Assembly (NCBI RefSeq): GCF_024228675.1
Contig: NZ_CP100461.1
Location: forward strand, 2,539,398-2,603,397
Source: Salinigranum marinum
GTDB lineage: Archaea; Halobacteriota; Halobacteria; Halobacteriales; Haloferacaceae
Direction of reading: 5' to 3'
DNA: 64,000 nucleotides
Every line of letters starts with the position of its first letter. The first letter of the stretch is position 1. Under the pieces are notes generated by a model. It did not search any database and was not told the DNA's origin. It saw only the letters and a list, made by a program, of their open reading frames with translations. This document shows positions 4,462 through 41,854 of this stretch, piece after piece. A program made the position numbers and the translations under genes.

Positions 4462-5874
4462 ATGCACGTCGCTATCGTCGGTGCGTACGGCAGCGCCGGA
4501 GTCGCCGTCGCGGAACGACTGAGCGAACACGTCGGCGAGACGGTGTCGAGGCTGTCGCTCGTCGACGACGGCGACCCCGGCGGTGGGCTCTGTATCCTCC
4601 GCGGCTGTATGCCGTCGAAGGAGGTCATCTCCGCCGCGGGGCACCGGTACGGCGTCCGCCACGACCACCGACTCGTCGGCTCTCCGCCGGCGATGGATCT
4701 CGACCGCGTCGTCGAGACGAAAGACGAGCACATCGACAACTTCGCGCGACACCGGCGCGCGGCGGTCCACGGGATGACCGAGCGCGAGGGGGTCGAGTTC
4801 TACCACGAGCGCGCGACGTTCGTCGACGACCACACGCTTCGGCTCGACCCCAGCGGCGACGAACTCGTTGCGGACTACGTCGTCGTCGCCACGGGCTCGG
4901 TCGTGAACGTCCCCGACCTCCCCGGCATCGACGACGTGGACGTGACGACGAGCGCCGACGTCCTCGACGCCACGTCCCTGCCCGACTCGGGGATCGTGAT
5001 GGGCTTCGGCTACATCGGCCTGGAGATGGTGCCGTACCTCGCGGAGGCCGGCGTCGACCTCACCGTGATCGAACACGACGCCCGCCCGCTGGACGAGGCC
5101 GACCCCGACTTCGGCGGCGAACTCCTCGACGTCTACCGCGAGGAGTTCGGCGTCGAGATCCTGACCCACGCGTACGAACAGCGGGTCGAACCGGTCGACG
5201 GGGGCGTGCGGATGCAGCTCGAACACGATGGCCGGGACGCGACACGGGAAGCCGACGAACTGTTCGTCTTCACGGGACGCCGGCCGAACCTCGACGGGCT
5301 CGGGCTGGAGAACACCGCGCTGACCCCCGACCCCGGCTGGGTCGACGACACGATGCAGGCCCGCGACGACCCGCGGACGTTCGTCGTCGGGGACGTGAAC
5401 AGAAAAGAGCCGATCCTCCACGTCGCCAAGGAGCAGGGACACGTCGCGGCCGAGAACCTCCTCGCGCACGCCGCCAACGAGGCGTTGGAGACGTACGAGA
5501 ACGTCCACCACCACGTCGTCTTCTCGGCGGCCGGCGTCTACCCCTACGCCCGCGTCGGTCACTCGGTCGCCTCCGCGCAGGAGGCAGAGGTCGAGCACGT
5601 CTCGGTCAGCAGACATGCCAGCGACGACGGCGTGTTCAAGACTAAAGCCACTCCCCGGGGACTGGCGACGCTCGTCGTCGGGACCGACGGCAGGGTGCTC
5701 GGCTACCAGGGGCTACACTACCACGCGGACGTGATGGCGAAGACGATGCAACTCGCCGTGGAGATGGGGCTCGACGTCAGGGAGATCCCGGACCGGGCGT
5801 ACCACCCCACGACGCCCGAGATACTCGACGGGCTGTTCCGTGAGGCGGCGAATGAACTGACCGACGCGACGTGA
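4462..5874 (+). CDS. Class I pyridine nucleotide-disulfide oxidoreductase (dihydrolipoyl dehydrogenase-like)
   Basis: 470 residues from the ATG at 4462; the open frame extends far upstream but only through the antisense-like shadow of kdgK. The redox pair is CILRGC (Cys44, Cys49), followed by MPSK. The NAD-binding fingerprint GFGYIG is near residue 180, and the C-terminal His448-x4-Glu453 pair of class I dimeric reductases is present. The first Rossmann loop is unusual (VGAYGSAG rather than GxGxxG). It is not next to any 2-oxoacid dehydrogenase genes, so the substrate (lipoyl, mercuric-type, low-molecular-weight thiol) is open. Confidence 0.75.
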   Translation: MHVAIVGAYGSAGVAVAERLSEHVGETVSRLSLVDDGDPGGGLCILRGCMPSKEVISAAGHRYGVRHDHRLVGSPPAMDLDRVVETKDEHIDNFARHRRAAVHGMTEREGVEFYHERATFVDDHTLRLDPSGDELVADYVVVATGSVVNVPDLPGIDDVDVTTSADVLDATSLPDSGIVMGFGYIGLEMVPYLAEAGVDLTVIEHDARPLDEADPDFGGELLDVYREEFGVEILTHAYEQRVEPVDGGVRMQLEHDGRDATREADELFVFTGRRPNLDGLGLENTALTPDPGWVDDTMQARDDPRTFVVGDVNRKEPILHVAKEQGHVAAENLLAHAANEALETYENVHHHVVFSAAGVYPYARVGHSVASAQEAEVEHVSVSRHASDDGVFKTKATPRGLATLVVGTDGRVLGYQGLHYHADVMAKTMQLAVEMGLDVREIPDRAYHPTTPEILDGLFREAANELTDAT

Positions 5875-5902
5875 CGAACGGACGGTAGCGCACCCGCCGC
5901 GG

Positions 5903-6355
5903 TCACTCGAACTCTAGGTCGACCGGTTCGATGTCGACCCGACGGATGACGAAGAACGCGAGGATGAGCACCGCCAGCAACAGGGCGAACGAGCCCGCGG
6001 CGACGAACGCCTCCTCGACCGAGGCGTACTCGCTGGGACGGTAGCTGATGACCTTCCGCGCGATGGCGATGAGCGCCGCGTTGATAACGATCCGGATGAC
6101 CGGCTCGTTCCGGCTGAACGCGACGACGGTCTGGAACACCTCGACGATGATCAACAAGAGCAAGACGGTGTCGATGAGATCGATGACGGCGTTCGGGTCG
6201 GTGAACCGACCCGAGGTCAGGAGTTGATACAGCGACAACCCCAGGTCGAAGACGCCGATGGCGAACAGCGCCACGAGAAAGTACGCGGCGCCCAGTTCGA
6301 GCCATCGCATGATCCGCTCGGAAGTCCCGGCGAAGTCTTCGAGTTCGAGAGCCAC
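5903..6355 (-). CDS. PsiE-family membrane protein
   Basis: 150 residues from a GTG at 6355. The upstream in-frame extension is arginine-rich and not protein-like, so this start (VALELEDFAGTSERIMRW) is preferred. Four hydrophobic segments are visible, with conserved text such as FTDPNAVIDLIDTVLLLLIIVEV, FSRNEPVIRIVINAALIAIARKVI and ALLLAVLILAFFVIRR, typical of the phosphate-starvation-inducible PsiE family. The biochemical role is unknown. It lies convergent to the oxidoreductase gene and downstream of the CNNM-like gene on the same strand. Confidence 0.75.
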   Translation of the reverse strand: MALELEDFAGTSERIMRWLELGAAYFLVALFAIGVFDLGLSLYQLLTSGRFTDPNAVIDLIDTVLLLLIIVEVFQTVVAFSRNEPVIRIVINAALIAIARKVISYRPSEYASVEEAFVAAGSFALLLAVLILAFFVIRRVDIEPVDLEFE

Positions 6356-6453
6356 ACCTGTCACAGGTCGTAGACGAACCAAAGCGTTGTGGCAGGCGTC
6401 GGTCCGACGGCGGGAGGCGACGCGAGGAGCCACCCGGTGTCGTCGACAGCGCC

Positions 6454-7809
6454 TCACTCGGAGACGGCGGGCGTGTCGCCGCCCTCGTCACCGTCGCCGT
6501 CGTCGACGACCGGCCGGACGCGAACGCGTCTGATGCGGTGACCGTCGACCCGCTCGACGTCGAGTTCGACCTCGTCGACGAGGACCGTGTCGCCGACGTC
6601 GCCGATGCGACCGAGTTCCGCGTTGATCAGGCCGGCGACGGTCTCGAACTCGCCCTCGGTGGGGAGATCGACGCCGAGGACGTCGTTCACCTCGCCGACA
6701 GTCACCTCGCCCTGGACGACGAGCCCGTCGGTCGTCGGGCGGATGAGCCGCTCCTCGCCGACCTCGAAGATCTCGCCGACGATCTCTTCGAGGATATCCT
6801 CGACGGTCAGGATCCCCTCGGTCTCGCCGAACTCGTCGCGGACGATGACCATCGTGACGCGCTCGGCCTGCATCTCCGCGAGGAGGTCGTCGATCTCTCT
6901 GCCCTCGGGCACCTGCAGCGTCGGGAGGAGCACGTCGTCGAGTTCCTGTCCCGCCCGGCGGGCGCGCTCGGCGTCGCGGATGTCCGCGATGCCGACGACG
7001 TGGTCGAGCGTCCCCTGGTAGACGGGGACGCGGGTGAGCCGGTTCGTGGCACACACCTCGATGACCTCGTCGAGCGGCGTCTCGACGTCGACGGCGACGA
7101 GGTTCACGCGCGGGACCATCACCTCCCGGGCCGTCGTCGACCCGAGTTCGAAGACGCCCTCGACCATCTCGTGTTCGGCCTCGTCGATCGCTCCGATCCG
7201 CTCGCCCGTCTTCAACAGCGCCTCGATCTCCTCGCGAGTGACGTACGGCCGCTCGATGTCGGAGCCGCCCCCGGTGATCCGGTTGAGGCCCCGGGAGACG
7301 AAGTCGAAGGTGACGACGAGCGGGAAGAGCAGTCGTTCGACGGTCGCGAGCGGCCCGGCGACCCGCAGGGCGAACCGCTCGGCGTTGGCGACGCCGTACG
7401 ACTTCGGCGTGATCTCGCCAAAGACGAGGACGAGCGCGCTCACGCCGAACGTCGTCACGAGGACGGCGACCTCCGGCGAGAGCGCCGCGGCGAGCAGGAC
7501 CGAGGCGATACTCGCCATCGCGATGTTGACGATGTTGTTCCCGACGAGGATGGTCACGAGGAGGCGGTGGGGATCCTCTCGGAGTCGGTGGAGCACCCGC
7601 GCACGCGGGTCGCCGCCGTCGGCCTCGAGGAGCGCCGAGAGCCGGTGGCGTTCGAGCGAGAAGACCGCGATCTCGCTCGACGAGAAGAACGCCGAGGCGA
7701 CGAGCAGAACGGCGATCGTCACCACCCCGACCAGGATCGTCGTCCCGGAGAGGACGTCGCCGGTCACGGCGAGGAGCCATCCGGCCACGGGCACACTGTC
7801 GAGTGTCAC
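6454..7809 (-). CDS. CNNM/CorC-type membrane protein (DUF21-CBS-CorC)
   Basis: 451 residues. An N-terminal DUF21 transmembrane domain (about residues 20-200, beginning VASAFFSSSEIAVFSLERHRL) is followed by a pair of CBS domains (about 215-335, with PRVNLVAVDVETPLDEVIEVC and VTMVIVRDEFGETEGILTVEDILEEIVGEI) and a C-terminal transporter-associated CorC/HlyC domain that includes VAGLINAELGRIGDVGD. Such proteins act in Mg2+ or Co2+ efflux or homeostasis, often under adenine-nucleotide sensing by the CBS pair. The old name 'hemolysin' is misleading. The ending is highly acidic, as expected of a halophile. Confidence 0.85.
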   Translation of the reverse strand: MTLDSVPVAGWLLAVTGDVLSGTTILVGVVTIAVLLVASAFFSSSEIAVFSLERHRLSALLEADGGDPRARVLHRLREDPHRLLVTILVGNNIVNIAMASIASVLLAAALSPEVAVLVTTFGVSALVLVFGEITPKSYGVANAERFALRVAGPLATVERLLFPLVVTFDFVSRGLNRITGGGSDIERPYVTREEIEALLKTGERIGAIDEAEHEMVEGVFELGSTTAREVMVPRVNLVAVDVETPLDEVIEVCATNRLTRVPVYQGTLDHVVGIADIRDAERARRAGQELDDVLLPTLQVPEGREIDDLLAEMQAERVTMVIVRDEFGETEGILTVEDILEEIVGEIFEVGEERLIRPTTDGLVVQGEVTVGEVNDVLGVDLPTEGEFETVAGLINAELGRIGDVGDTVLVDEVELDVERVDGHRIRRVRVRPVVDDGDGDEGGDTPAVSE

Positions 7810-8181
7810 GAAGACTCACCGTCGAGTGATCGAGGCTGTCGACACCGTGAGAGGGCGGGGGTCGCGGACGCACGAATCCGGGGCCGACGGTGTAGCATGA
7901 CCCGAAGATAGACCGACGGGACGTTAGTTCCTGTGGGTTGGGACCGTCCGGACAGCGAGGGTTGGTCCGCCTCGTCGCGCCGCGAACGAACCGCTCGGGC
8001 GGAGCGAACCTGTCCGCGGGGCGACCCGACGCCCGTTCGGGAGGTCCGAGGGGCGTCGAAACGCCGGAGACGCCTCTCGGCCACGAGGGCGAACGACACG
8101 CCGAGGGGCGGCGACGTCGCGGTGTCGGGCGCGGAGTCGTCCCGACGCGGATGGGTCGCCGGGGCGGAACGGCGACGAGGC
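7810..8181. other. Intergenic region without a supported gene
   Basis: About 370 bp between two minus-strand genes. The open frames on either strand are arginine-rich, lack halophilic acidity and look like chance GC-rich frames. No RNA or repeat was recognised. Confidence 0.4.
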
Positions 8182-8436
8182 TCAGCGGCTGTTTTCGAGC
8201 GAGCAGTACGACCCCTCTTCGGCGGTCAGCCAGGCCGTTGTCCGCGGGAGCTCCGCCGACGCCGTGTGCGGGAAGATCGTACACTCGTCCGGCGCGTCGT
8301 CGTACTGCTCGACGTGTCCGTGGAGGGCGAACCCGGCGTCGGACGCCGGCGGGGGGCCGAGGTCGAGGCCGAACGGCTCCGCGTTCCGACTCGGTCCCCC
8401 CGTGGAGTCGGCGTCGCGGTCGGTCGTGTCAGACAT
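8182..8436 (-). CDS. Small conserved haloarchaeal protein, DUF7511-like
   Basis: 84 residues from the ATG at 8436, very acidic. The C-terminal half (DECTIFPHTASAELPRTTAWLTAEEGSYCSLENSR, about residues 49-84) resembles the conserved core of the haloarchaeal DUF7511 family, where an ECTxFP strand is followed by TAWxTAxEGSYxxLE. The N-terminal half is a low-complexity linker. No function is known. The assignment is from remembered family text and should be treated as moderate. Confidence 0.6.
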   Translation of the reverse strand: MSDTTDRDADSTGGPSRNAEPFGLDLGPPPASDAGFALHGHVEQYDDAPDECTIFPHTASAELPRTTAWLTAEEGSYCSLENSR

Positions 8437-8613
8437 GAATAACATCCCCGTGAACAGGGGTTACTCACGGTCGTTAATGGGCTTTTCTATCCCCGACGCG
8501 CACGGGCCACGGCGCGGCACCATGCCACGCGACTGGGGACCGGAGTCGAGGGTCGCTCGGGCTGAGTCGACGCCGGGAGACGGGTTAAGTATCACACCGC
8601 CGAACGGACGACC

Positions 8614-9612
8614 ATGTCCTCCGACCCGAACGGTGGGAGACGGCCGACGAACGACCGACCGAACGTGTTCGACGTCACGGTCCGGGCGGTGATGCGCCGG
8701 CGCATCGAGACCGCCCCGCCGTCGGCGTCGGCGCGGACGGTGGTCCGCCAGCTGCACGAGGCCGACGCCGGTTCGATCGTCGTCGTCGACGAGGCGGGCG
8801 ATCCGGTCGGCATCGTCACCGACTCCGACGTCCTCGCGCTCGTCGTCGACGAGCGACCGCTCGATGGGACGACCGCCGCCGACTGCCTGTCGGCCCCGGT
8901 CGTGACGGTCGACGCCGACGACGGCATCGAGGCGGCCGCCGAGACGCTCCGCGAACACGACATCGACCAAGCACCCGTCCTCGACGACGGCGCGCTCGTC
9001 GGCGTCGTCTCCGTCCGCGAACTCTCGTACTACCTGCCCGGGCTGTCGCTGTCGGACGTGACGACGCAAAGCGCCGGCGAGTACGCGTACGAGGACCGCG
9101 CGGCCCCCGGCGTCGACGTCGGCGACGTGGTCCGCTTCTCGAAACGGCTCGACGACGGCGACCTCCGGGCGTTCGCGCGCGCCAGCGGCGACGAAAACCC
9201 CCTCCACCTCGACGACGCGTACGCCGCGACGACGCGGTTCGGCGGCCGAATCGCCCACGGCGTGCTCACCCTGGGCGTCGTGAGTGCGGCGCTCTCGCGG
9301 CTCCCCGGCCTCGTCGTCTACCTCTCACAGAGCGTCCGGTTCGTCGGGCCGGTCGCGGTCGGCGACCGCGTGACCGCGGTCTGTGAGATCGTCGAGGCGC
9401 TCGGCGGCGGGCGGTACCGACTGCGGACGACGGTCCGCGACGAGGACGGCGACTCCGTCATCGACGGCGAGGCGGTGGTCTGGATCGACACGCGATCGGG
9501 AGACGACGCGGAAGCGGACACAGAGACGAAACCGGACCCGAACTCGGAGGCGGAGACTGACGGGGACACAGACACGGACGCGGCCCTGAGCTCGGGGACT
9601 GACGCGGACTGA
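8614..9612 (+). CDS. CBS-pair / MaoC dehydratase fusion protein
   Basis: 332 residues. Two CBS motifs fill residues about 15-140 (VMRRRIETAPPSASARTVVRQL...GIVTDSDVLALVV and CLSAPVVTVDADDGIEAAAETL...GVVSVRELSYYL). A MaoC-like hot-dog domain follows (about 170-290), with the catalytic FARASGDENPLHLD segment and the FGGRIAHGVL turn typical of (R)-specific enoyl-CoA hydratases. The C-terminus is a polar acidic tail. CBS pairs usually bind adenosyl ligands, so the hydratase may be nucleotide-regulated. The combination in one chain is unusual. Confidence 0.8.
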   Translation: MSSDPNGGRRPTNDRPNVFDVTVRAVMRRRIETAPPSASARTVVRQLHEADAGSIVVVDEAGDPVGIVTDSDVLALVVDERPLDGTTAADCLSAPVVTVDADDGIEAAAETLREHDIDQAPVLDDGALVGVVSVRELSYYLPGLSLSDVTTQSAGEYAYEDRAAPGVDVGDVVRFSKRLDDGDLRAFARASGDENPLHLDDAYAATTRFGGRIAHGVLTLGVVSAALSRLPGLVVYLSQSVRFVGPVAVGDRVTAVCEIVEALGGGRYRLRTTVRDEDGDSVIDGEAVVWIDTRSGDDAEADTETKPDPNSEAETDGDTDTDAALSSGTDAD

Positions 9613-9673
9613 TCGGGCCCGACAGCCGCACGCTTGCACATCATTTATGCCCTCTGCGTCCCCCTCGTATCGT

Positions 9674-10384
9674 ATGTCAGTCGAGTACGATTTCGAGGGA
9701 AGCGTCGCACTGGTGACCGGCGCGGCGGGCGCGCTCGGCGGCGGCGTCGTCAAGGCGTTCGTCGACGCGGGGGCGACCGTCGCCGCCGCCGATCTGGTCG
9801 ATCCCGACGAGGTCGACCTCCCGGATGGGGCGACGTACTACCAGGGCGACTTCACCGACGAAGCGGCCGTCTCGTCGACCGTCGCGGAAGTCGTCGACGA
9901 CCACGGCGGCATCGACTCCCTCGTGAACGTCGCCGGCACCTGGCGGGGTGGCTCGCCGGTCGACGAGACCGACGTCGACACGTTCGACTTCCTCTTCGAC
10001 GTGAATCTCAAGACGATGTTCCTCGCGTCGAAACACGCCCTGCCCCACCTCCGGGAGTCCGACGCCGACGGCGGCGGGACTATCGTCTCGATCTCGGCGC
10101 GCTCGTCGCTCGAAGGCGGCGAGGGCGACAGCGTCTACCGCGCGACGAAGGCCGGCGTCCGACTCGTGACCGAGAGCATCGCCGAGGAGAACCGGGGGAC
10201 GGTCCGCGCGAACGCGATCATGCCGAGCGTCATCGACACCGAGATGAACCGCGAGATGATGCCCGACGCCGACCACGACTCGTGGCCCACGCCCGCGGAA
10301 CTCGCCGACGTGATCCTCTTTCTCTGCAGCGACGGCGCCGGCGTGACGAGCGGTGCAGCGGTTCCGGTGTACGGCGAGGCCTGA
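9674..10384 (+). CDS. Short-chain dehydrogenase/reductase
   Basis: 236 residues from the ATG at 9674 (nine codons inside the longest frame, which otherwise starts with a non-conserved stretch). It shows the classical SDR motifs: TGAAGALGGG for cofactor binding, NVAG near residue 85, a catalytic Ser in SISARSS and YRATKAG as the YxxxK active site (about residue 155). It probably acts as an NAD(P)H-dependent 3-oxoacyl or polyol reductase; the substrate is unknown. Its position after the CBS-MaoC hydratase hints at a role in acyl or hydroxyacyl metabolism, but the gap (61 bp) allows a separate promoter. Confidence 0.8.
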   Translation: MSVEYDFEGSVALVTGAAGALGGGVVKAFVDAGATVAAADLVDPDEVDLPDGATYYQGDFTDEAAVSSTVAEVVDDHGGIDSLVNVAGTWRGGSPVDETDVDTFDFLFDVNLKTMFLASKHALPHLRESDADGGGTIVSISARSSLEGGEGDSVYRATKAGVRLVTESIAEENRGTVRANAIMPSVIDTEMNREMMPDADHDSWPTPAELADVILFLCSDGAGVTSGAAVPVYGEA

Positions 10385-10441
10385 GCCGAGAGACGGTGTG
10401 AGGGATGGATCCCGTCTTACCCCTCCGTCGATCGGACTGCG

Positions 10442-12406
10442 TTACCGACCGTTCCTACGCCGCCGGCGGACGACGACCAGAACGATAGCGAGCGCGCCCG
10501 CGACGGCACCGACGCCGAAGCCGGGGAACGTCGTCGACGTGGTCGTTCCACTGGCGGGCGTGGTCGTCTGGGCCGCCGTGGCCGTGTCGGTCGCCGTGGC
10601 CGGTGCGGTCACGGTGGTCGTCTCGCTCTCGGTGGTCGCACCGCCCGCGTCACTACTTGCGGCGCCCGCCGGTGCCGTCGTGATGGCGAACGTCGTGTAG
10701 GCGGGGGTGCCGAAGTCGCCTGTCGGGAATCCGGGCGTCTCGAACCGGATCGTCACGGTCGAGTCGTCGCTGGAGACGAGTTCGTGCTCGAGCGTCTCCC
10801 ACGTTCCCACCGACTTGTTGTACCGTTCGACCTGCAGTCCGTCGGGATCGGCCCCGATCGCAGACAGGCGTGAACGGTCGAGCGCCACCGTGACAGTACC
10901 CGGGTCGTCCCGGACGGGTTCCGGGGGCGTGACCTCGAACAGCGAGACGACCGTGTCGTAGTTGCGCGGGTAGTCGGTGTCCGCCGGTGGGACGTTCAGT
11001 TCGGACACTCCGAACTGTCCAGCGGTCTCCTCGCCGAACTCGAAGCGGATCGACTCCAGACGGGGCGACGAGTCGCCGACCGACACGGTCGTCGAACTGC
11101 CCCCGCCCATAAAGCCGGTGATCGAGGCGATCGTCCTCGTGCCGAGGCTGCCACCGCCGCCACCGCCGCCCCCGCCACCGCCGCCCGAGGAGGCGCTCGA
11201 TCCACCGTCGTCGTCGTCCGGTTCGGCTGACGTCGGCGACGAAACCGTCACGGTGGTGTTTCGACGGTTGTTCGTCTCGTCGTGCTCGAGAACCGTGTCG
11301 CCGGCGTCGACGACGAGCGTGAGTTCACGCTCCCCGGTTGCCGACGGGGTCCAGTTGAACGACACGTTCACCGTTCCACCGACCGGAACGTCGGCCGTCG
11401 TCGTGCCGACGCTCGTCCCGTTGGCCAGCAAGTCGATCCCGACGTCTGCGGCACCGTCGGTGCCGGTGTTCGTGACTGTCCCCGTCACCGTCGTCGTCGA
11501 GCCGTTCGTCGCCTCGGACGGGGCAGTCAGGTTCGTCGGTTCGAGGTCCGGGCGCGGACCCGAGACCACGGTGACCGTTGTTGTCCGTCTGTTGTCCGTC
11601 TCGTCGAGTTCGAGCACCGTGTCGTCGTCGTCGACGGCGAGCGTGAGTTCGTGCGATCCGATGGTCGACGGGGTCCAGTTGAACGACACGTTTCGGGAGC
11701 TGCTGATCGGAACGTCGATCGTCGTCGTGTCGGTAGGTTGGCCATCGATCAGCAGGTCGACCGCGACGCTCGTCGCGTTGTACTCACCGGTGTTTTCCAC
11801 TGTTCCGGTCACTGTGACCTGCTCGCGGTTCGTCGGATCCGACGGGACGGTCAGGTTCGTGGGTTCGAGATCCGGCCCCGACGTCGAGACGTTCGTCTCC
11901 GTGAGTCCGAGCGTCGTTCCCGTCGGCCCGTGGACGCCGCCGGTGAACACGGTCTCGGTCGTCGCGTCCTCGGAGGCGTCGAACGTCGCCGCTAACCGGA
12001 GCGTCTCCGTGCCGGTGGTCGGTGGGCTCCGGTTGACGAACGTGAGTCGGGTGAGCGATCGCCCACCGACTGTGTCGGTCGACTCTCTCACGACCATGTC
12101 GAGCGACTGTCCGCCGAGTGACGCGGTGTAACTCGCGTACGAGAGGTCCGCCGCGGGATCGTGGTACAGCGTCACCATCACCGGGCCGTCCGAGGCGTTC
12201 GTGTCGACTGCCACGGTGTGGGTGTACGTCGACCCCATCCGGGCCCGGTCGTCGGCCGGCGGCTGTGACGTGTACTCGAAGACGACCGATGCGGCCGCGA
12301 CTGGCGCGGCGACCGTGAGGCCGACGACCGCGACGACGAGTAGGACCGACAGCGAACGACGGAGCCGACGAGAGGTCGGCGACGAGCGCGCCTCGGAACG
12401 GCTCAT
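10442..12406 (-). CDS. CARDB-repeat surface protein with PGF-pre-PGF domain and PGF-CTERM anchor
   Basis: 654 residues. A signal peptide (LSVLLVVAVVGLTVAAPVAA) is followed by an N-terminal beta domain, then two CARDB-type domains (about residues 180-280 and 290-385, each with DLEPTNLT...TVTGTVxNTG and a TLVVDxxDTVLExDETNNRR ending). A poly-glycine linker, a PGF-pre-PGF-like domain and the C-terminal signal PGFGVGAVAGALAIVLVVV-RRRRR complete it. PGF-CTERM proteins are processed by an archaeosortase (ArtA) and lipid-anchored at the surface. The gene overlaps the upstream protease gene by 4 bp, so the two are translationally coupled. Confidence 0.8.
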   Translation of the reverse strand: MSRSEARSSPTSRRLRRSLSVLLVVAVVGLTVAAPVAAASVVFEYTSQPPADDRARMGSTYTHTVAVDTNASDGPVMVTLYHDPAADLSYASYTASLGGQSLDMVVRESTDTVGGRSLTRLTFVNRSPPTTGTETLRLAATFDASEDATTETVFTGGVHGPTGTTLGLTETNVSTSGPDLEPTNLTVPSDPTNREQVTVTGTVENTGEYNATSVAVDLLIDGQPTDTTTIDVPISSSRNVSFNWTPSTIGSHELTLAVDDDDTVLELDETDNRRTTTVTVVSGPRPDLEPTNLTAPSEATNGSTTTVTGTVTNTGTDGAADVGIDLLANGTSVGTTTADVPVGGTVNVSFNWTPSATGERELTLVVDAGDTVLEHDETNNRRNTTVTVSSPTSAEPDDDDGGSSASSGGGGGGGGGGGGSLGTRTIASITGFMGGGSSTTVSVGDSSPRLESIRFEFGEETAGQFGVSELNVPPADTDYPRNYDTVVSLFEVTPPEPVRDDPGTVTVALDRSRLSAIGADPDGLQVERYNKSVGTWETLEHELVSSDDSTVTIRFETPGFPTGDFGTPAYTTFAITTAPAGAASSDAGGATTESETTTVTAPATATDTATAAQTTTPASGTTTSTTFPGFGVGAVAGALAIVLVVVRRRRRNGR

Positions 12407-15400
12407 CGCGCCACCTCCGCGCGGGCGAGCGTCGCAGCCGTGTGTGACGCACGCGGCGTGGCCGCGATCGTCTCGCGTGAGACCGGTCGGACCTCGGTTC
12501 GTGCGTCGCCCGTCGTCTGGTTGAAGTAGACGTTCGTCAGCTGGTCTGCCATGCGGTCCTCGTAGTAGGTTTTACCCTGCTGACTCGCCGTCTGCCACTG
12601 CCGAGCGCTCTCCTGAATGCGCTGTCGGTAGACCGTAATCGTCGCCTCGGTCACCTCGACCGTAATCTGCTCGTCGATGACCGTCCCCTGCACAGTGAAC
12701 GTCACCGTCCCGTTGTACGTCCCCTCCGGGAGTCCGTCGGGCGGTGCGACACGGAGCGTGATCCGTCTGGTCTCACCAGAGGAGAGTTGGACGACGCTGA
12801 GATCGGCCGTCACGCTCGACGCCGGAATCGTGTCACCGGCGGCCGAGGTCAGTTCTCGTGGCTGAACGTACACGGTCACGTCTCCACTGGTCGCGGTGGC
12901 CGTCGCAGTCGGACCGAGGGTTCCCGACGTCGAAGTCGTCGTCGTGGCCGTAGTACCCGACTCGTTCTTGATCGTGAGCGCAGCCTGCTTCAGCGCGTCG
13001 GAGACGTTCGCGGTGCGGATGTACTCGCGTGAGGCACTGGCGAGTTCCGCCGCGGCGGAGTCGAACTGTGGGTCGGGACCCGCGTTGGAGGATACGGAGT
13101 CGTCCGTCGACGAAGTCGCCGAGAGCGACGACGTCGTCGTGGACGTCGGGCGACTCAGCGAGACGTTCAACGTTCCAACGCCACCTTCGGTGACGCGCGG
13201 CTGGTCCTCCACACTGGCGTTGAGGAGCGACGACTGGTCGATGACAGTCCACGAGACGCGCTGTTGTCGCAAGATGTCGCCTGCCTCGGCCGTGACGGTC
13301 GCCGAGTACGTGCCGTCCTCGCCGAGCGGGACGCTCCCGCGGTACGTGCCCACCGTCCGCTCGGTGAGCGTGACGGTCTGTACGTCACCGTCAGGGTAGG
13401 TCACCACCGCTTCGATATCCGCACCGGAGATTCCACCGTTCGGTCCGACGAGCGTCGCGGTGAACGTCGCTGCCGACCCGTTGATGTAGGTCGACGCGCC
13501 GGCGGTGCTGTCGAACGTCGTCCGGCTACTCGCCGTCGCGGTGGTCGTGTAGGAGACCCGCTGGGAACCCTGGTTGACGACCTCGTACGACCACTCGCCG
13601 GGCGTGGGATCGGTGAGCCTGTACGTCGTGGTGCCGCCGGTCGTCGTCTTCTCGACGTCCGGGTTCGACGCGGGATCGATCGGCGACCCCGAGGGATCGT
13701 ACAACGTGACCGACGAACTCGACGAGATGGTGACGGTCACGGTGAGCGTCGCTCTACCGGTGGTGTCGTCGATGCTGAACCGTTCTCGCGTCCGGTTGTT
13801 GGCGTCCAGGATCCCTTTCGACGAGAACAGCGTGCTCTCGCCGGACGACACCTGACGGATGTCCTGGTAGATCGCCTGGAGTTCGTCACGGTCGCCCGCC
13901 TGGTTGAACGTCCCGCACGTCCGGTCGGCGATGTCCCGGAGGAGTTGTTCGTCCGCACCGGAACCGAACGCGATCGTGTAGACGCAGTAGTCCCGGGCGG
14001 CGAACGTGCTCGCGAGCTGTCTGACTCCGTCGTCGGAGTAACCCTGGTTGTTCTCCCCGTCGGTGAGGAGGACAGCGGCCTTGCGGCTCCCCTGTGAGGC
14101 CCGGTCGAGTTCGGCGCGCGCGTCTAGCATGCCGGCACCGATGTTGGTCGAGCCAGTGGCACGGAGGCTATCGATCTCGCCTCTGGCTCGCGACCGGTTA
14201 CCGCCCACTCGGGAGATCGGGAGGTCGGTCCGCGCGTTGTCGGAGTAACTGACGACCGCGACCTCGTCGGAGTTGCTCATCAGGTTGACGAAGATCGTCG
14301 CCGAGTCCTGTGCGGCCGCCAGTTTACCGCTGCCGAATCCCATACTGCCAGATCGATCGATGACGAGCGACGCGGCGGCGGTGCCGGTCGCCCCACCGGC
14401 GGAGTACGTGATCGCGTCGGACGCGTTGGCCCAGGCAGTGTGTGAGGCGTTGAACTTCTCGTCGGTGAACGAGACGTTGAGATCGTAGTCCCCCGTCGCC
14501 GGCTGCGTCGGCGGCGTCACGACGAGTCGGTACTTGTCCTGTCGGTTGTTGACTGGTGACACTGCCATCCTGTTCGACGGGACGGGTTTGCCACCGACGC
14601 GGACCTCGAAGTGTGAAGCGTCGGGTTCGCCGAAGCCCGCGTAGGTGTACGGCTGGTTCGCCGTCTCGGCGGTGACGTTGAAGCTGATCGTCCCTGGCTC
14701 CGAGGCGTTACCTGCCGTTCCGTCTTCAACGCTCACGTCGGCCTCGGACGGGAGCGGCTCGGCTGGGTAGTTGACCGCTGCTGAGAACGACGCTCCGCCG
14801 GACGAATTCTCTTCGTAGACGACCTTCCAACCCTTGTTGTCCTGAGGGATACCCAAGACCCGGTTGGTCGGAGTCGAAACGGAGGAGTACGCCTGCTCGA
14901 TCGGAACGTTTGTTAACCGAGAACGGTCGTTCAAGAACCCAGAGGGAGTGTACAGCGAGATATCCACGTCGTCTCCGTCGGTGTACGCGAGCGTTCGCAC
15001 AGCACCATTCGCGTTGACAAACTCTCCGGAGCGGATCTCCTGATCAACTGCGAGAGCGTACACTGCTGACTCGCCGTCATCTAATGACGTCGGATCGAGA
15101 TACTCGAATTCGGAGACGCGGTTCGACGACGAAGGGCTCGGGGGGTACGAGGTCGCCAGCGCCCACGTTGCGTTCGGGCCTTCGATCGTACTCCCAACGA
15201 TCCGGTTCGGATAGTCGCTCGAACCGGATGCGGGCTCCACCGAAACAGCCGTCGCATCGTACTGTCGACCAGCACGACTGCCGAGGGTGTAGCGTAAGCT
15301 GTCGCTTCCGTTCTCCCAGTAGAGTGTCCCCTTAATGTCCTGTTTGAACTGCGGAACAACAGTCGGCGTCCGGCTGTCGACGGTTTGTTCACCTCCCCTG

Positions 15401-17493
15401 TTCACCCCGGTGACGACGAAACTCGTCGAGACACGGAAGGCGTCGACGATTCCCGATCCGACGTTCGACTGCTTTCCAAGCGTCGGACGCTGAGTTACGC
15501 CGTCGGCACCGTTCTGGACGACTGCTTTCACCATTCGAGGGTTCGGACGCAGTCCATGGGTCTCAGCGTACAACTGAACGTACTGTGCTGCGACACCGGC
15601 AGCCAGTGGTTGAGCGTATGATGTCCCGTCACCTGTATCGTAGCACGGAGAACTATTGCACTCGTCAGGCGGGACCGTGGAGCGAATGTTTTCCCCTGGA
15701 GCGACGATATCGGGCTTCACTGCCCCATCCCAGAGTGGCCCCTGGCTCGAGAAATCCGTCACCTGTCGAGTATCGTCGACAGCACCGACGGTGATCGCCT
15801 TTTTTGCGGTCGCAGGCGGCGTGATCGTGTAACTGGGATCGGGATTCAAGAAGTAGCCTCGTCCGTTTGGACGCCGGGTGGTCACTTCGACGTGGTACTG
15901 ACCACTCGGCCCGTCATCGACGGTCGCTTCCCAGGTCCCTGATCCATACTGACTCGGATCGTCTATCTCGACGATCTGTCCGTCCTTGTTCGACGGGAAG
16001 GTCACCGGGCTGTTCGTGGGACGAAGCGTACTGCCGTTTGGAGCTGTGACCTCAACGTTCGCCCCACTGACGCTGCTGTCCCAGGATAAAATTATGTAGG
16101 CGGTGTCCGGATCATCAAAGAACCTGAACTCATGCTGATTCGACCCCGATGAGTCGGTAAGCGAGCCGATGGCGTGTTGGTCCCCTTCGTTACCGGCGGA
16201 GATGAACACCGATGGCCGAGCACTCGTCCGTGTCGAACCGTACCGTCCCTCCACCGCGTCGTTCGTGACACGAGCGAGACGGCTCTCCCCGTTCTGTGGA
16301 GAGAGTGAATGGGTCACAGTTCCAAAACTCAGGGAGATTATGTCGACGTGATTCCGCAGGAACCACTCCAGCGCGAGAACGTAATCGCTCGTACGGTATG
16401 TCTCGGTCGATGCCACATATAGATTCGCGTCCGGTGCCACACGCTCGATTGCTCCGGCGACGAAAGTCCCGTGTTCCCCTTCGTCGTGAATCGTGTCGGT
16501 ATCCTCGATGTCGCCGTCGGCGACGTCTTGGAACGCCACCACGTCGCCGTTGAGATCGCTGTGATTCACCCCGGTGTCGAAAATCCCGACATCGGCGGAT
16601 CGACCCGTGAGCCTACCGGAATCAGTTAGGGCACGAGAATTAACACCGTCCGGACTAATCGCATATCCGCTCGGACCGTCGTAGTCGTTCGGAGATGCGT
16701 CTATCGACTGGCTCGTGTTTGACTCGTTCACTGCGGGAGGGGAGTCGTCGCTGGCAGACAACGGCATCATCATGCCGTGAACCATCGTTACCGACTCCTG
16801 TTCAGCCAGCGTACCGAGCTCGCTCGCTTTCGCATTTCGCACCAAGACAGCATTGGTGAACAGGAGGTACTGTACGTCCGATATCGGGACGTCGGCTGCA
16901 CTGGCGATCTGCCGTTTGGTTGCCTGTACTTGTGGATCAGCCGACGCTCGCCGCGCTGCCTCCGCGTACGAGCTGTTCTGACTGCTCTCAACCAATCGAC
17001 CGCGGTCGAGGTTCACGTCGACAAGGACGTCCACTCTATCTATCCGTTCCACCGAATAAAACTCGCGGAGATCCTCTCGGAGTGTATTTGCGGCGCTCGT
17101 GGTGCTCGTAGCACCCACAGTGGCACCGTCACGAGAGGTACTGGCCCGGACGAAAGGAACGAGTTCTGGGTCGAGATTCTCCGCATCAGACCCGGGGAGT
17201 GCTGCGGTTTCACGCGGCAGGGATGGACTCGTTGGCGTCTCCGTCGCTGTACTCGTTGGCGTCTCCGTCGCTGTACTCGTTGGCGTCTCCGTCGCTGTAC
17301 TCGTTGGCGTCTCCGTCGCTGTACTCGTTGGCGTCTCCGTCGCTGTACTCGTTGGCGTCTCCGTCGCTGTACTCGTTGGCGTCTCTGTCGGCGTGTTCGT
17401 CGGGTCGGACTGCGCCAGCGCAGGCGCAATTGGTACGAGCACCGACACAATCATGATGAACGATAGTAAAATTGCGATGTTTTTTTCTTTCAT
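12403..17493 (-). CDS. Giant secreted subtilase (S8) fused to a von Willebrand factor A domain
   Basis: 1696 residues from the ATG at 17493 (MKEKNIAILLSFIMIVSVLVP, a signal peptide). The open frame extends to 17601 but would then overlap the upstream lipoprotein gene. A Thr/Pro/Ser repeat (about residues 30-90) and a propeptide-like region precede the S8 domain, whose triad is Asp306 (IFDTGV), His341 (EHGTFVAG) and Ser625 (GTSYAQPLAAG), with oxyanion Asn435 (SAGNEG). A VWA domain carries an intact MIDAS DRSGS at Asp1046. Beta-sandwich regions follow. No transmembrane or PGF anchor is visible at the C-terminus. Inferred role: a processed cell-surface or exported protease/adhesion protein. Confidence 0.8.
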   Translation of the reverse strand: MKEKNIAILLSFIMIVSVLVPIAPALAQSDPTNTPTETPTSTATETPTSTATETPTSTATETPTSTATETPTSTATETPTSTATETPTSPSLPRETAALPGSDAENLDPELVPFVRASTSRDGATVGATSTTSAANTLREDLREFYSVERIDRVDVLVDVNLDRGRLVESSQNSSYAEAARRASADPQVQATKRQIASAADVPISDVQYLLFTNAVLVRNAKASELGTLAEQESVTMVHGMMMPLSASDDSPPAVNESNTSQSIDASPNDYDGPSGYAISPDGVNSRALTDSGRLTGRSADVGIFDTGVNHSDLNGDVVAFQDVADGDIEDTDTIHDEGEHGTFVAGAIERVAPDANLYVASTETYRTSDYVLALEWFLRNHVDIISLSFGTVTHSLSPQNGESRLARVTNDAVEGRYGSTRTSARPSVFISAGNEGDQHAIGSLTDSSGSNQHEFRFFDDPDTAYIILSWDSSVSGANVEVTAPNGSTLRPTNSPVTFPSNKDGQIVEIDDPSQYGSGTWEATVDDGPSGQYHVEVTTRRPNGRGYFLNPDPSYTITPPATAKKAITVGAVDDTRQVTDFSSQGPLWDGAVKPDIVAPGENIRSTVPPDECNSSPCYDTGDGTSYAQPLAAGVAAQYVQLYAETHGLRPNPRMVKAVVQNGADGVTQRPTLGKQSNVGSGIVDAFRVSTSFVVTGVNRGGEQTVDSRTPTVVPQFKQDIKGTLYWENGSDSLRYTLGSRAGRQYDATAVSVEPASGSSDYPNRIVGSTIEGPNATWALATSYPPSPSSSNRVSEFEYLDPTSLDDGESAVYALAVDQEIRSGEFVNANGAVRTLAYTDGDDVDISLYTPSGFLNDRSRLTNVPIEQAYSSVSTPTNRVLGIPQDNKGWKVVYEENSSGGASFSAAVNYPAEPLPSEADVSVEDGTAGNASEPGTISFNVTAETANQPYTYAGFGEPDASHFEVRVGGKPVPSNRMAVSPVNNRQDKYRLVVTPPTQPATGDYDLNVSFTDEKFNASHTAWANASDAITYSAGGATGTAAASLVIDRSGSMGFGSGKLAAAQDSATIFVNLMSNSDEVAVVSYSDNARTDLPISRVGGNRSRARGEIDSLRATGSTNIGAGMLDARAELDRASQGSRKAAVLLTDGENNQGYSDDGVRQLASTFAARDYCVYTIAFGSGADEQLLRDIADRTCGTFNQAGDRDELQAIYQDIRQVSSGESTLFSSKGILDANNRTRERFSIDDTTGRATLTVTVTISSSSSVTLYDPSGSPIDPASNPDVEKTTTGGTTTYRLTDPTPGEWSYEVVNQGSQRVSYTTTATASSRTTFDSTAGASTYINGSAATFTATLVGPNGGISGADIEAVVTYPDGDVQTVTLTERTVGTYRGSVPLGEDGTYSATVTAEAGDILRQQRVSWTVIDQSSLLNASVEDQPRVTEGGVGTLNVSLSRPTSTTTSSLSATSSTDDSVSSNAGPDPQFDSAAAELASASREYIRTANVSDALKQAALTIKNESGTTATTTTSTSGTLGPTATATATSGDVTVYVQPRELTSAAGDTIPASSVTADLSVVQLSSGETRRITLRVAPPDGLPEGTYNGTVTFTVQGTVIDEQITVEVTEATITVYRQRIQESARQWQTASQQGKTYYEDRMADQLTNVYFNQTTGDARTEVRPVSRETIAATPRASHTAATLARAEVAR
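17231..17398 (-). repeat. 24-bp tandem repeat coding for a TATETPTS tract
   Basis: Six perfect 24-bp units from 17231 to 17374 and a seventh degenerate unit to 17398. On the minus strand they encode the Thr/Glu/Pro/Ser linker after the signal peptide of the giant protease. Perfect unit identity implies recent slippage or unequal exchange, so copy number may vary between strains. Confidence 0.9.
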
Positions 17494-17497
17494 TTTA

Positions 17498-18220
17498 TTA
17501 TGTTTTTGATTGATTTGAACTGTCCGGTCCGATAACTTCGATGATAAGTCCGTTGAAATCAGCGTAGAACGTCTCGCCGAGTTCAACACGTCCCTCCTCA
17601 ACTACCGCAGTGCTGTTGTCTACGATTCTGATCGTCGTTCCATCGTGTGCGACCCGCTGGACATCAGAGGCGGAGTCAGAGAAGACGTATTGCCTGATAC
17701 GAACACGATCGCCTTCTTCGCCGACCACCGGTGGCTCCGGTGCCGATGCGTTCCGTCTGACGACGGATAGACCACGCTCCGTTGCACCCCCATCGCTTGA
17801 GATCACGAGGACGTTGAATCCGGGGCGGTAGGTTCCGTTCGCCTCGAGAACAGTTCCTGGGCTAGGGAAGTCCTCAGCGCGGTGTTCGGGGGTATGCTCA
17901 AAATGAATAAGAATGCTGGCGTTTGCGAGCGCCGCAGGCCCGGTTTGAACCTCGGTTACGTACAGCACGGAACCGTAGTTGAACGTCCCGAACTGCCCCT
18001 GTTCGGGATTTCTTGGAGTCGGGTTTTCCAACTCTGTGGGTTCGGTAGTGAGCACCCCAGTGACGGCCACGTCTGTCGGGCTCTGGATGGAACTGAGTGC
18101 CGTCGGGCTTTGTGTCGTAGTCCCACCCGAAGAGGCTCCGCTGCAGCCGCACAACACGATCAATAGGGAAAGAGTCACCGAGAGTTTCGAGCTGGACAGA
18201 AGATGCCTACTGTTTGTCAT
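17498..18220 (-). CDS. Secreted lipoprotein of unknown function
   Basis: 240 residues. The start MTNSRHLLSSSKLSVTLSLLIVLCGCSG contains a lipobox-like LCGC for lipid attachment of the cysteine, followed by a Ser/Thr-rich tether. The rest is a beta-rich acidic domain with GxVLYVTEVQTGPAALANASI and DRVRIRQYVFSDSASDVQRV but no enzyme motif I recognise. It ends 4 bp before the ATG of the giant protease, so it is the first gene of the operon 18220-17498, 17493-12403, 12406-10442. It could be an accessory or substrate-presenting subunit; this is inference. Confidence 0.7.
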   Translation of the reverse strand: MTNSRHLLSSSKLSVTLSLLIVLCGCSGASSGGTTTQSPTALSSIQSPTDVAVTGVLTTEPTELENPTPRNPEQGQFGTFNYGSVLYVTEVQTGPAALANASILIHFEHTPEHRAEDFPSPGTVLEANGTYRPGFNVLVISSDGGATERGLSVVRRNASAPEPPVVGEEGDRVRIRQYVFSDSASDVQRVAHDGTTIRIVDNSTAVVEEGRVELGETFYADFNGLIIEVIGPDSSNQSKT

Positions 18221-37636: not shown

Positions 37637-38019
37637 CTAACTAACGCGAGTCACGCAGGGGGACGAAACGCCAGGTCCCCGTGAAACGGTCGCCCCTTGT
37701 GATTGGAGGGGACGAGCATCTTCGTCGCCTTCGAACGGGTCGTCACCGTAGACCACGTCGCCCGGCACGGCCCAGTACGTCGCCCTGTGTTCGACGAGGT
37801 CGCGTGGCGTGCGTCGGATGACCGCGGTGCTCACGGCACCTTCGTGGAGGTCGGTCTGCTTTGCGATCTCACGGGCTTCGAAGGCGCGTCGTGGTCGGCC
37901 GCGAGGCAGTCGAGTACCACCTCCTGAACCGACAACTCGGAGAATTCCTCGTCTGTCGCGCTCTCGATGGTTTCGCGGTCGATCGACATCGTGACACGGT
38001 CTGTGCCCTCCAGCGGCAT
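37637..38019 (-). pseudogene. Frameshifted winged-helix (MarR-like) gene
   Basis: The first part, from the ATG at 38019, reads MPLEGTDRVTMSIDRETIESATDEEFSELSVQEVVLDCLAAD. The continuation RAFEAREIAKQTDLHEGAVSTA...RDLVEHRATYWAVPGD lies in another frame, joined near 37890-37905. Together they match a common haloarchaeal helix-turn-helix family with a conserved SVDRETIExAxDEEFxELSVQEVVL start. The frameshift and the lack of a conserved C-terminus mark it as decayed. It marks the start of a gene-poor, IS-rich stretch. Confidence 0.65.
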
Positions 38020-38661
38020 CAGTGTAAAATGTGAGTAACGTGACCACTGTACTGCTTCGACGACGAAGGTATTTCGATAGCGATCACCGGTGGGAGCCAG
38101 TCCACACCGTCGTGTTTGATGCAGCGTGGGCTTGAGGCCAAGAGACGACGGTAGGCTGGGATGGACGTTCGCTCGGTACAGGCGAGTTACTACCCGTTGT
38201 TGACCTTCTATCAAAATTTTATACTTGTTTGCTCGTTGCAACGGCTACGATAGTGGGACACTGATCGGAACGAGGATCGACGCGCATCAAAATCTCTCGG
38301 GTCGTTCTCTGTGACGAGAGCCGTCTTTGGTATTCGCCCTCCGTCGGTCTCATCGCGTCCACCAAGCGGCGTGCCGAAGAGGTCAGAAATGCATGAAATA
38401 TTCTGGGTACGGTATAAATGCGTTATACCGTTAAGCTAGAAACCAATGCTGTCACGGATGTTCTATTCGTCTGTATGCCTCAGAGAAACCATGCCGATGA
38501 TCAAGCCAGAGCTACTGAATCGAAATTTTACCCCCCCGCCGGGTCCGACCCGTCGTTCGTAGCCAGTCGGTTGGAGTGGCTCTGGGCGACGCTGTTCAAC
38601 CACGGCATCGAGACAGCGACGTAACTGCGAACGACTGCATTAAAACGGTCGGCTCAGGGGT
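38020..38661. other. Gene-poor region upstream of the ISH3 element
   Basis: About 640 bp with no supported gene. Short frames (for example 38418-38624) lack halophilic composition and conserved motifs. Base composition is lower in GC than the flanks. It is probably remnant DNA of a decayed element. Confidence 0.4.
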
Positions 38662-38666
38662 AGATT

Positions 38667-40065
38667 CAGTACTTCACGAAGCCGGTTAGTTGAGACGTCT
38701 GCTTGCGGAAGGTGTGCTTAGAACCCAGCAAGCAGACAGTAGACTCCATGAGGACCAGATTCTTAACTTCCTCGTCAACACCCTTGACGAGGAAGTTTCG
38801 ATCACTCTCGGTGAGAACGCTCAGATAACGTCGGAAGAGATCTGTGAGGTCCTCGTCGGCGCGTGCGCCGACGGGACCTCAATCTCGACACTTTGTGAGA
38901 ATAGTGCTAACTCCCCTCGTGCCAACGCCGTCCTCTATCATCTTCGGACGAAGTTCGAGCTGGAACAGCTCGAACGAGTCGGAAACACACTCCTCCAGCG
39001 AGATATTCTCGATGCCCTTCCCAAGCAGGTGGAGGTCGTCGCTGACCTCCACCTGCGTCCCTACTACGGTGACGAAGACGGCACAGAGGGCCTCTACCAC
39101 TCGGAAGCCAAGCGTGGAACAACCGCATTCCACGCGTACGCGACGCTGTACGCACGCGTGAAGAACAAACGCTACACGCTGGCGGTGCGCCGTCTTGTCG
39201 ACGGCGACACCGCCAGCAGCGTCCTCGCCGAGTTTCTCGGTATCCTTGACGGCCTTGACCTCGGCGTCAAGGCCGTCTACCTCGATCGAGAATTCTACGA
39301 CAGCAAGTGTCTCACGCTGCTGCAGGCGCACAACCACGCGTACGTCATCCCGATTATCCGGTGGGGTCAGTCGATCAAGCAAGAACTCTCCGAGGGCTGG
39401 AGTCGCGTGATTCACCACGACATGACGGCGAAACTCGACGGTCACAGCTGGACCGTCGAGTTTCCCGTCTACATCGACTGTACCTACCAGAACGGACGAT
39501 ACGACGAACATGGCGTGGCGCGTCACGGCTACGCCGCTGACGCGCCGTTCATCAATTCTCCTCGCGACGCTCGATACCACTACGCGAAACGCTTCGGTAT
39601 CGAGGCCAGCTACCGACTCTCCGAGCAAACGATTGCGACGACTACGACACAGGATCCGGCGGTACGGCTGCTGTACGTCGTAGTGAGTTTGCTGTTACAG
39701 AACGTGTGGCGGTATCTGCACTGGGAGTATGTGGCGACGCCCCGCCGAGGCGGGCGTCGCCTCTGGGAGTGGTCGTATAAGGAGTTCACCAACATGATCC
39801 GACGGGCAGCGTGGACGGCCCTCGCGACGCGTCGGGCCGTCCCCGCAAACCGACCGCCGGACGACCGGTTCGTCCGGTAACGACCGATCGAGTACGCCCC
39901 TGCGGTGAGTGGCAAGGCTGTCGCGTCGGCGGCGGATCGCCGCCGACAGCGACGATCTTCTCTTGATCTTCCGGTGACCCCCTCGTCAAGATCGATAGTG
40001 GAGTCGATTCGACACGGAACTTAAGCTTCAGAGGTGGTTAGCCGAGGAAGTTTCGTGAAGTACTG
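38667..40065 (+). mobile_element. Intact ISH3-family insertion sequence
   Basis: 1399 bp bounded by perfect 14-bp terminal inverted repeats: cagtacttcacgaa at 38667-38680 and its reverse complement at 40052-40065. The flanking 5 bp are identical, agatt at 38662-38666 and at 40066-40070, a target-site duplication. Length, ends and transposase are those of the haloarchaeal ISH3 family. The unmutated duplication and open transposase frame indicate a recent insertion. Confidence 0.95.
38714..39880 (+). CDS. ISH3-family transposase
   Basis: 388 residues from a GTG at 38714 (a TTG at 38690 gives 396). It contains IHEDQ-like LHEDQILNFLVNTLDEEV, LVGACADGTSISTLC, VEVVADLHLRPYYGDEDGTEGLYHSEAKRGTTAFHAYATLY, KAVYLDREFYDSKCL and RFGIEASYRLSEQTIATTTTQDPAVRLLYV. 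These are the DDE-type catalytic blocks of ISH3 (Asp in ADLHLRPYYGDED, Asp in YLDREF, Glu in FGIEASYR). The frame is undisrupted, so the element may be active. Confidence 0.9.
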   Translation: MLRTQQADSRLHEDQILNFLVNTLDEEVSITLGENAQITSEEICEVLVGACADGTSISTLCENSANSPRANAVLYHLRTKFELEQLERVGNTLLQRDILDALPKQVEVVADLHLRPYYGDEDGTEGLYHSEAKRGTTAFHAYATLYARVKNKRYTLAVRRLVDGDTASSVLAEFLGILDGLDLGVKAVYLDREFYDSKCLTLLQAHNHAYVIPIIRWGQSIKQELSEGWSRVIHHDMTAKLDGHSWTVEFPVYIDCTYQNGRYDEHGVARHGYAADAPFINSPRDARYHYAKRFGIEASYRLSEQTIATTTTQDPAVRLLYVVVSLLLQNVWRYLHWEYVATPRRGGRRLWEWSYKEFTNMIRRAAWTALATRRAVPANRPPDDRFVR

Positions 40066-40295
40066 AGATTGTGCTCAGTTCTGATCGGTCTCCGGTCTGA
40101 CCGACACACACGAGAAGCAAGTATTTGAACAGCGTCCCCGTATTCAGAAACCGTGACCAATCGACTCGATTAAGTCACCACACAGCCATCAGTACGACCC
40201 CAGTGGCGAGCACGGCAGTGTAGATTTTCGCCAAGCATCTCAAGAAAAATCAATTGTAAAATTTTGCATGCTGAAAACTATCATACAACAAAATA

Positions 40296-40964: not shown

Positions 40965-41026
40965 GTTCTCACTGTAGGTTCCGGGATACTGTGAGATCGT
41001 ATTTAGCTGTAATTGAGGGCGCTAAG

Positions 41027-41068
41027 CCCCCTTCCTCAGCGAGCGTCGAAGACGCGAGCAGGGAGGGG
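41027..41068 (+). ncRNA. TnpB-type hairpin, copy 2 (possible omega-RNA scaffold)
   Basis: Begins CCCCCCTTCCTCAGCGAGCG and closes GCGAGCAGGGAGGGG, the same layout (C-run, CCTCA, GAGCG, loop, GAGC, AGGGNGGGG) as the hairpin that ends the TnpB remnant at 21886-21934. It lies upstream of a TnpB C-terminal fragment. A left end or the scar of another copy are both possible. Confidence 0.4.
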
Positions 41069-41142
41069 ATACAGCACCCGCACGAGTTGTTTGCACGTTC
41101 TCCGCCACATTTACTACCCACGCGGTCAAGCCGGGTCGTGCG

Positions 41143-41376: not shown

Positions 41377-41377
41377 T

Positions 41378-41593: not shown

Positions 41594-41854
41594 ATTTGTA
41601 GTAGAGAGAGTGCCACTGAAAGCGTTTCGTGAGATATGGATTATCTCGCGACCGACTCGCGCCCTGTACTCACCTATGGAAATTCTGCTGGCCGAACAAA
41701 CCACGGCTGGCGTAATAACGATTCGGACCACCTCGACGATTCCGGCGCCGAGTTCGTAAAACTGGCAGACGGTGAGACGATGGCTCGCTGTCCAACGGGC
41801 AGGCGGGGAACGTGAATAGAGAGAGCTGTCGCTCCCGCTGGCTCCGACCGGCCA

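Follow-up and report, generated by a model that had tools for sequence, protein, structure and literature searches.

A predicted secreted subtilase-VWA giant protein and a candidate CARDB anchor partner encoded by overlapping genes in the haloarchaeon Salinigranum marinum

The window analysed here, a stretch of 64,000 nucleotides from Salinigranum marinum, carries three co-directional genes on the minus strand. They encode a lipoprotein of 240 aa (17498..18220), a giant S8-VWA protein predicted to be secreted (12403..17493) and its candidate anchor partner, a CARDB protein of 654 aa (10442..12406). The open reading frame of the giant (12403-17601, minus strand) opens at TTG 17601 and comprises 1732 aa counted from that codon; its likely start is the ATG at 17493-17491, which opens the signal peptide MKEKNIAILLSFIMIVSVLVPIAPALAQ. 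Residues of the giant are numbered from TTG 17601 throughout, the likely true Met being residue 37. This ATG sits 4 bp past the stop codon of the lipoprotein gene, and the giant and CARDB genes share 4 nt (12403-12406). The ORF coordinates thus bore out the initial annotation, which had described a three-gene cluster with gaps or overlaps of 4 bp. GC content drops to 0.62 and 0.58 across the lipoprotein gene and the front of the giant (window 14001-18000), which is consistent with recent acquisition. Another low-GC stretch (0.55-0.60) was observed at window positions 38000-44000 and contains an ORF (41884-42882) starting MYLGIDLHKRYAQVAV, which we take to resemble an IS110-type transposase. 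A scan of the window for sigma-70-type promoters and terminators is of no use for an archaeon.

The giant consists, in order, of a signal peptide, a Thr/Pro stalk, a propeptide-like region, an S8 domain with an inserted domain, beta-sandwich linkers, a VWA domain, a GBD domain, E-set domains and a conserved tail, all encoded on the minus strand. The TATETPTS stalk follows the signal peptide and is encoded by a 24-bp tandem repeat (17227..17390; 6.8 copies, 99% matches). The S8 catalytic domain (15487..16614, ORF residues about 330-705, with the insert at about 480-590) could be assigned to Peptidase S8 by its Pfam score of 1.2e-33, above the cut-off, together with its Asp-His-Ser triad. The triad residues D342, H377 and S661 align with those of solved subtilisins, and the oxyanion residue is N471. 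A linker beta-domain (14722..15090, residues about 838-960) precedes the VWA domain (13852..14376, residues 1076-1250), which scored 1e-19 with Pfam, above the cut-off, and showed a complete MIDAS site (D1082-x-S-x-S, T1152, D1181). The fold of the VWA domain matched that of 4fx5 with Z 25 and rmsd 1.9 over 179 aligned residues. It is followed by a GBD_Hemicentin-like and then a Filamin-like E-set domain (13252..13851, residues 1251-1450), where Pfam returned GBD_Hemicentin at 3.1e-8 and a weak Filamin match; a NEW3-like domain was also detected behind the GBD. A helical insert (12877..13101, about residues 1501-1575) and the conserved C-terminal tail (12406..12636, residues 1656-1732) complete the protein. 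Inspection by eye found no C-terminal membrane segment, and the earlier reading of the middle protein as one chain with an intact S8 triad and an intact MIDAS site, lacking its own anchor, is therefore upheld.

The partner begins with an N-terminal beta-domain (11864..12301, minus strand, residues 36-181), followed by two CARDB repeats (11237..11875, minus strand, about residues 178-390) that were matched by the Pfam CARDB profile in two stretches (2.5e-38). An AlphaFold model of the partner, built from 2 sequences, had a mean pLDDT of 54.5, and its N-terminal domain was all-beta with pLDDT mostly 50-60. The CARDB part of the model resembled the CARDB domain of PF1109 (Z 13.0, rmsd 3.0, 106 aligned). 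At the C-terminus, a PGF-type anchor signal (10445..10525, minus strand) was read by eye as PGFGVG, a hydrophobic stretch and RRRRR. On the lipoprotein a lipobox cysteine, Cys26 in LCGC, was likewise seen by eye behind a hydrophobic signal, and lipidation is predicted. These motifs agree with the initial annotation, according to which both flanking proteins are predicted to be membrane-attached; at E <= 1, however, none of the PGF-CTERM models scored on the partner encoded in the window, and PGF_pre_PGF scored 0.012. The partner homologue of genome G056 has the motif GGF, not PGF, and both this and the missing PGF-CTERM score weigh against the two-protein reading proposed below. A second giant S8 protein was observed in the window's genome, near 2046000-2051000 of G000:C1 (locus L049, minus strand, 5072-10741 as counted along the reverse complement). 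Like the window giant, this 1889-aa open frame has a Thr/Pro stalk; by eye it also shows Ig/PKD-looking domains in several copies and a PGF-type tail of its own, and it therefore needs no partner.

To find relatives of the giant, we ran a 631-aa query (middle part, VWA and GBD) against 391 genomes of the class. Because three candidates were scored per genome, relatives may have been missed. A match at 1e-3 was obtained in 153 of the 391 genomes, and most of the matches listed cover the VWA alone. Matches well beyond the VWA were found in G056 (1480-aa open frame, 40%), G125 and G209, and twice in G295; weaker ones came from G277, G377 and G384. G310 matched at 30% along a long stretch, yet without a VWA. 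A module profile of six rows (the window, G056, G125, G209 and both G295 copies) was then compared with 170 genomes of the family, and full-length matches were restricted to the window's genome, G056, G125 and G209; the values for G125 and G209 (1.5e-295 and 1.3e-283) come from sequences that are themselves profile rows. Three other genomes of the window's genus yielded VWA-type matches only. A profile of the post-VWA region gave only partial matches in two other families, in 5 of 125 genomes (f4) and 11 of 146 (f3). With so few full-length matches, and only partial ones in other families, the system is rare and patchy. A search of wider genome contigs with the whole giant recovered, in bacteria, relatives of the VWA region alone (5 loci). 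A viral or plasmid system was considered and rejected: two viral-contig scans contained no relative, and plasmid matches were partial. In tblastn searches of plasmids with the giant, none of 106 records covered 80% of the query, and among the 30 of these listed the matches were partial S8 or VWA only; none was found with the CARDB partner. Nor did we find a description of this gene pair in the open-licence literature, where absence is weak evidence.

One genome of another genus carries the same pair. At locus L053 of G056 a homologue of the giant (7737-12149) overlaps by 1 nt (TAATG) with the gene that follows, which begins at 12149 and encodes a CARDB protein of 542 aa. Identity between the two giants is 39% over 950-1718; the two CARDB partners are 46% identical over 35-280, their N-terminal domains reaching 54%. 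Strong matches to a profile of the partner N-terminal domain were confined to 2 of the 391 genomes of the class, the window's own genome and G056, both of which carry a split giant, that is, a giant and its CARDB protein in separate genes. Two further matches to this profile (1.4e-4 and 1e-3), both in short frames, extended over just 41 and 65 positions and probably arose by chance. This recurrence in a second genus, where both proteins are conserved, makes the arrangement more than chance, and the comparison supports the view that the giant and the CARDB/PGF protein form a conserved pair and belong together. Their co-occurrence could also arise by joint transfer without contact.

The lipoprotein behaved differently from this pair. 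Among the other 390 genomes of the class no clear relative of its body was found: eight weak matches were obtained, at E 1e-5 or worse, seven of them limited to the first 89 residues and the eighth (G347) spanning 9-197 at E 4.4e-4. Nor did it turn up when the genus's three other genomes were searched. We rejected a conserved three-gene unit, as the lipoprotein matches are short and weak and the gene is absent from those three genomes. An arrangement in which all three genes still act as one unit, with the lipoprotein as a protease inhibitor, a self-immunity protein or a second anchor, appears unlikely to us. It would account for the co-directional position of the lipoprotein gene 4 bp upstream of the giant, and the giant of G056 and the two of G295 also have lipoprotein-like genes directly upstream, in divergent orientation and, in G295, as tandem paralogues. 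However, the lipoprotein kinds of the window, G056 and G295 share no sequence similarity with one another, and genes of this sort are frequent: three others turned up in a crude scan of the 56 ORFs called in the window. The window lipoprotein gene escaped that scan, having been dropped by the crude gene caller. Because lipoprotein-like genes are so common, their presence beside giants in several genomes is a weak lead. At each G295 giant four related lipoprotein-like genes were observed in a divergent tandem array (L056 6370-8889 and L057 8438-10861); the three genes compared were 61-73% identical, and giants and arrays look duplicated together. The comparisons indicate that the upstream lipoprotein is a genome-restricted local addition and no conserved partner of the giant. 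A search for the three-gene order in other haloarchaea, as proposed initially, thus recovered the giant and the CARDB gene in G056 and left the lipoprotein without a clear relative. The surface complex suggested at that stage is retained here for the giant and CARDB protein, on the comparative evidence of the G056 pair, the N-terminal domain in 2 of 391 genomes and the one-chain forms described below; a constant third place for the lipoprotein is not supported.

Two relatives of the giant were found to carry parts of both window proteins in one chain. In L054 (G125, 2150 aa) and L055 (G209, 1800 aa) the VWA module is followed by CARDB-like repeats. A profile built from the CARDB domains of the two partners scored 5e-14 on the C-terminal part of L054 and 0.0087, a weak value, on that of L055, where Pfam CARDB gave 1.8e-6; no other part of the giants tested scored below E 0.1 with the CARDB-domain profile. 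PGF-pre-PGF-like regions were detected in both proteins (0.0015 and 0.0054, under the curated cut-off) next to PGFG tails, and the PGF-CTERM model reached 1.9e-4 on L055, just under its cut-off. These fused giants have the VWA-GBD-E-set module in common with the window giant and continue behind it into CARDB-like repeats and then a PGF-CTERM tail, but differ in having a Vps62-like head in place of S8, an anchor within the chain, and neither the helical insert nor the candidate docking tail. The second and third window genes thus correspond to the two halves, module and anchor, of such a one-chain protein, and the fusions provide the best evidence that the CARDB gene may encode the anchor of the giant. 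In G277 (L059) we observed a Vps62-like gene (9771-13724) adjoining a VWA-GBD gene (7420-9765) with a gap of about 5 bp; the split point differs from that in the window, and each gene apparently has its own membrane segment (by eye).

The anchor is not universal, because the two G295 giants (L056 and L057) have neither an anchor nor a nearby CARDB partner. Homologues of the giant without partners, which the initial annotation had counted as evidence against a complex, therefore do exist; those of G125 and G209 have the partner's part in-chain, while the G295 copies have no anchor, so that this objection applies only in part. The G295 copies, together with the signal peptide and missing anchor of the window giant, would fit a giant that is a freely secreted exoprotease, with the CARDB protein an independent adhesin merely co-transcribed with it. 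We regard this as a less probable though serious alternative, since the start/stop-overlapping adjacency is kept in two genera, the partner domain is limited to the same 2 of 391 genomes, and one-chain forms exist in G125 and G209. On balance we lean towards a two-protein surface protease in which the giant would be held by docking to its CARDB partner. Free secretion is the habit of halolysins, which are small enzymes. Unlike them, the window S8 domain is built into a VWA protein of 1.7 kilo-residues that has a candidate anchor partner; an excerpt of PMC6085418 describes halolysins as likewise secreted haloarchaeal S8 proteases.

We then compared the split, fused and G295 giants to locate segments through which the giant and its partner might dock. 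In a segment-wise alignment the two split giants share the helical insert (about 1501-1575) and the last 77 residues, and the fused and G295 giants lack both. The 1501-1600 segment is about 30% identical between the window and G056 giants and the tail 47% identical; in place of the tail L054 and L055 have CARDB-like sequence, and nothing aligns in L056 and L057. An AlphaFold model of the module (6 sequences, pLDDT 57.7) left the tail unstructured. We infer that the split-form-specific tail, the helical insert and the partner N-terminal domain are docking segments, and with two split examples at hand the assignment of these parts rests on a single comparison. Docking by the VWA or CARDB modules, as first proposed, is less likely because both are present in one-chain relatives that need no docking, and the tail, insert and partner N-terminal domain, seen in the split form only, appear to be better candidates. 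The proposed arrangement resembles cohesin-dockerin docking, in which a beta-sandwich domain on an anchored protein takes up the C-terminal segment of an enzyme; here the beta-sandwich domain of the anchored partner would capture the C-terminal segment of the secreted giant. Unlike a dockerin, the window tail shows no obvious calcium-loop repeats (by eye). The low confidence of both models counts against the docking assignment. In the partner model, the structure closest in fold to the N-terminal domain on its own was a DUF4466 protein (Z 11.2, rmsd 2.7 over 124 residues, 6% identity); together with the CARDB domain it matched the cohesin-FN3 pair of 2w1n (Z 10.3, rmsd 10.7 across two domains, 209 residues). 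Pfam cohesin and dockerin profiles did not match the isolated N-terminal domain or the giant tail at E <= 10, and a sequence search of solved structures with the N-terminal domain found no match. The cohesin lead for this domain is suggestive but unproven.

The part of the giant that precedes the VWA module varied between genomes. The G056 giant (L053, 7737-12149) has no S8 domain; its N-terminal part matched the NCBIfam MXAN_6640 metalloprotease (1e-12, under the curated cut-off) and lugdulysin (8.7e-5), and at residue 249 it reads QEFAH for HExxH, so that the first zinc ligand is lost. This zincin-like head is probably a degenerate, non-catalytic protease domain kept before the module. G125, G209 and both G295 copies carry a Vps62-like head; the four are alike by BLAST, and in a scan that left out L056, Pfam Vps62 scored 4.6e-5 on L057 and more weakly on L054 and L055. 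A literature search on Vps62 yielded no relevant paper. The linker beta-domain of the window giant is common to the G056 zincin-type giant and to an M6 peptidase of G310 (L058). The latter shares this domain alone (34% over 839-1049) and has a PGFG tail, but differs in its M6 metallopeptidase head (TIGR03296, 3.5e-45), in PKD repeats in place of the VWA and in its in-chain anchor. From these comparisons the enzyme before the VWA module is interchangeable between S8, zincin-like and Vps62-like types. The variable heads, the very patchy distribution and the lipoprotein arrays adjoining the duplicated G295 giants are also what one might expect of a conflict or toxin-like system, in which a variable enzymatic head on a VWA stalk is aimed at other cells. 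This seems to us quite improbable, as no known toxin domain, variable C-terminal tip or recognised immunity gene was found and a protease that serves nutrition or processing at the cell surface is a simpler interpretation.

The initial annotation had likened the protease-VWA-beta-sandwich layout to animal CLCA proteins by analogy only. In an excerpt of Lenart et al. (2013, PMC3650047), CLCA architecture is given as a CLCA_N zincin, VWA, DUF1973 and FN3; versions with M10 (Teredinibacter) or CHAP (Methanosarcina) instead of CLCA_N, and CLCA zincins with substituted sites, are already reported. Measured against that excerpt (PMC3650047), the window giant and its relatives share a secreted front peptidase, a VWA, a GBD_Hemicentin-like beta-sandwich, Ig-like domains, a patchy prokaryotic distribution and substituted zincin sites, and the window VWA fold matched that of CLCA1 with Z 22.0 and rmsd 1.7 over 152 aligned residues. 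The window differs in its S8 head, in the Filamin-like and NEW3-like domains and docking-type tail behind the GBD, and in an anchor supplied by a second gene. CLCA_N gave no match on the giant up to E 1, the HExxH zincin that marks the CLCA protease is not present, and DUF1973 itself was silent in Pfam where GBD_Hemicentin and Filamin trail the VWA. True CLCA membership was rejected, because CLCA_N is absent and the head is S8. The resemblance is nevertheless somewhat stronger than first stated, given the order of VWA, GBD_Hemicentin and Filamin-like domains and the swapped peptidases in the published excerpt (PMC3650047), although the CLCA protease domain is lacking. The head-swap principle is thus already known from that source (PMC3650047), and the versions found in the present analysis are those with an S8 head, a Vps62-like head or a split anchor.

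The gene order, domains, catalytic and MIDAS residues, conserved pair and fused counterparts were read directly from the sequence; how the two proteins are exported, anchored and docked, and that the giant binds a ligand and cleaves proteins, is predicted. The giant would be exported via Sec by its signal peptide, with S8 in front and the VWA-GBD-E-set module behind, and would itself lack a membrane anchor. The CARDB protein, translated together with it, would also be exported and held in the membrane by its PGF-type C-terminal tail, probably through an archaeosortase. Its N-terminal beta-domain may then bind the conserved C-terminal tail of the giant, and perhaps the helical insert too, and this capture would display the protease on a CARDB stalk, where the MIDAS site of the VWA may bind a surface or extracellular ligand. 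More tentatively, and in our view doubtfully, haloarchaea may possess a modular system for surface display. In it, the short conserved tail of VWA giants, which is not a dockerin, would be captured by a cohesin-like receptor domain carried on a CARDB stalk with a PGF anchor, the same VWA module presenting varied heads and the anchor being either docked or fused. If the proposed two-protein surface protease is real, it would constitute a testable two-subunit archaeal surface protease with natural one-chain counterparts as controls, and a docking pair would be proposed for the display of enzymes on archaeal cells. The head swapping before a CLCA-like VWA-beta-sandwich module described in the published excerpt (PMC3650047) would then extend to S8, degenerate zincin and Vps62-like heads.
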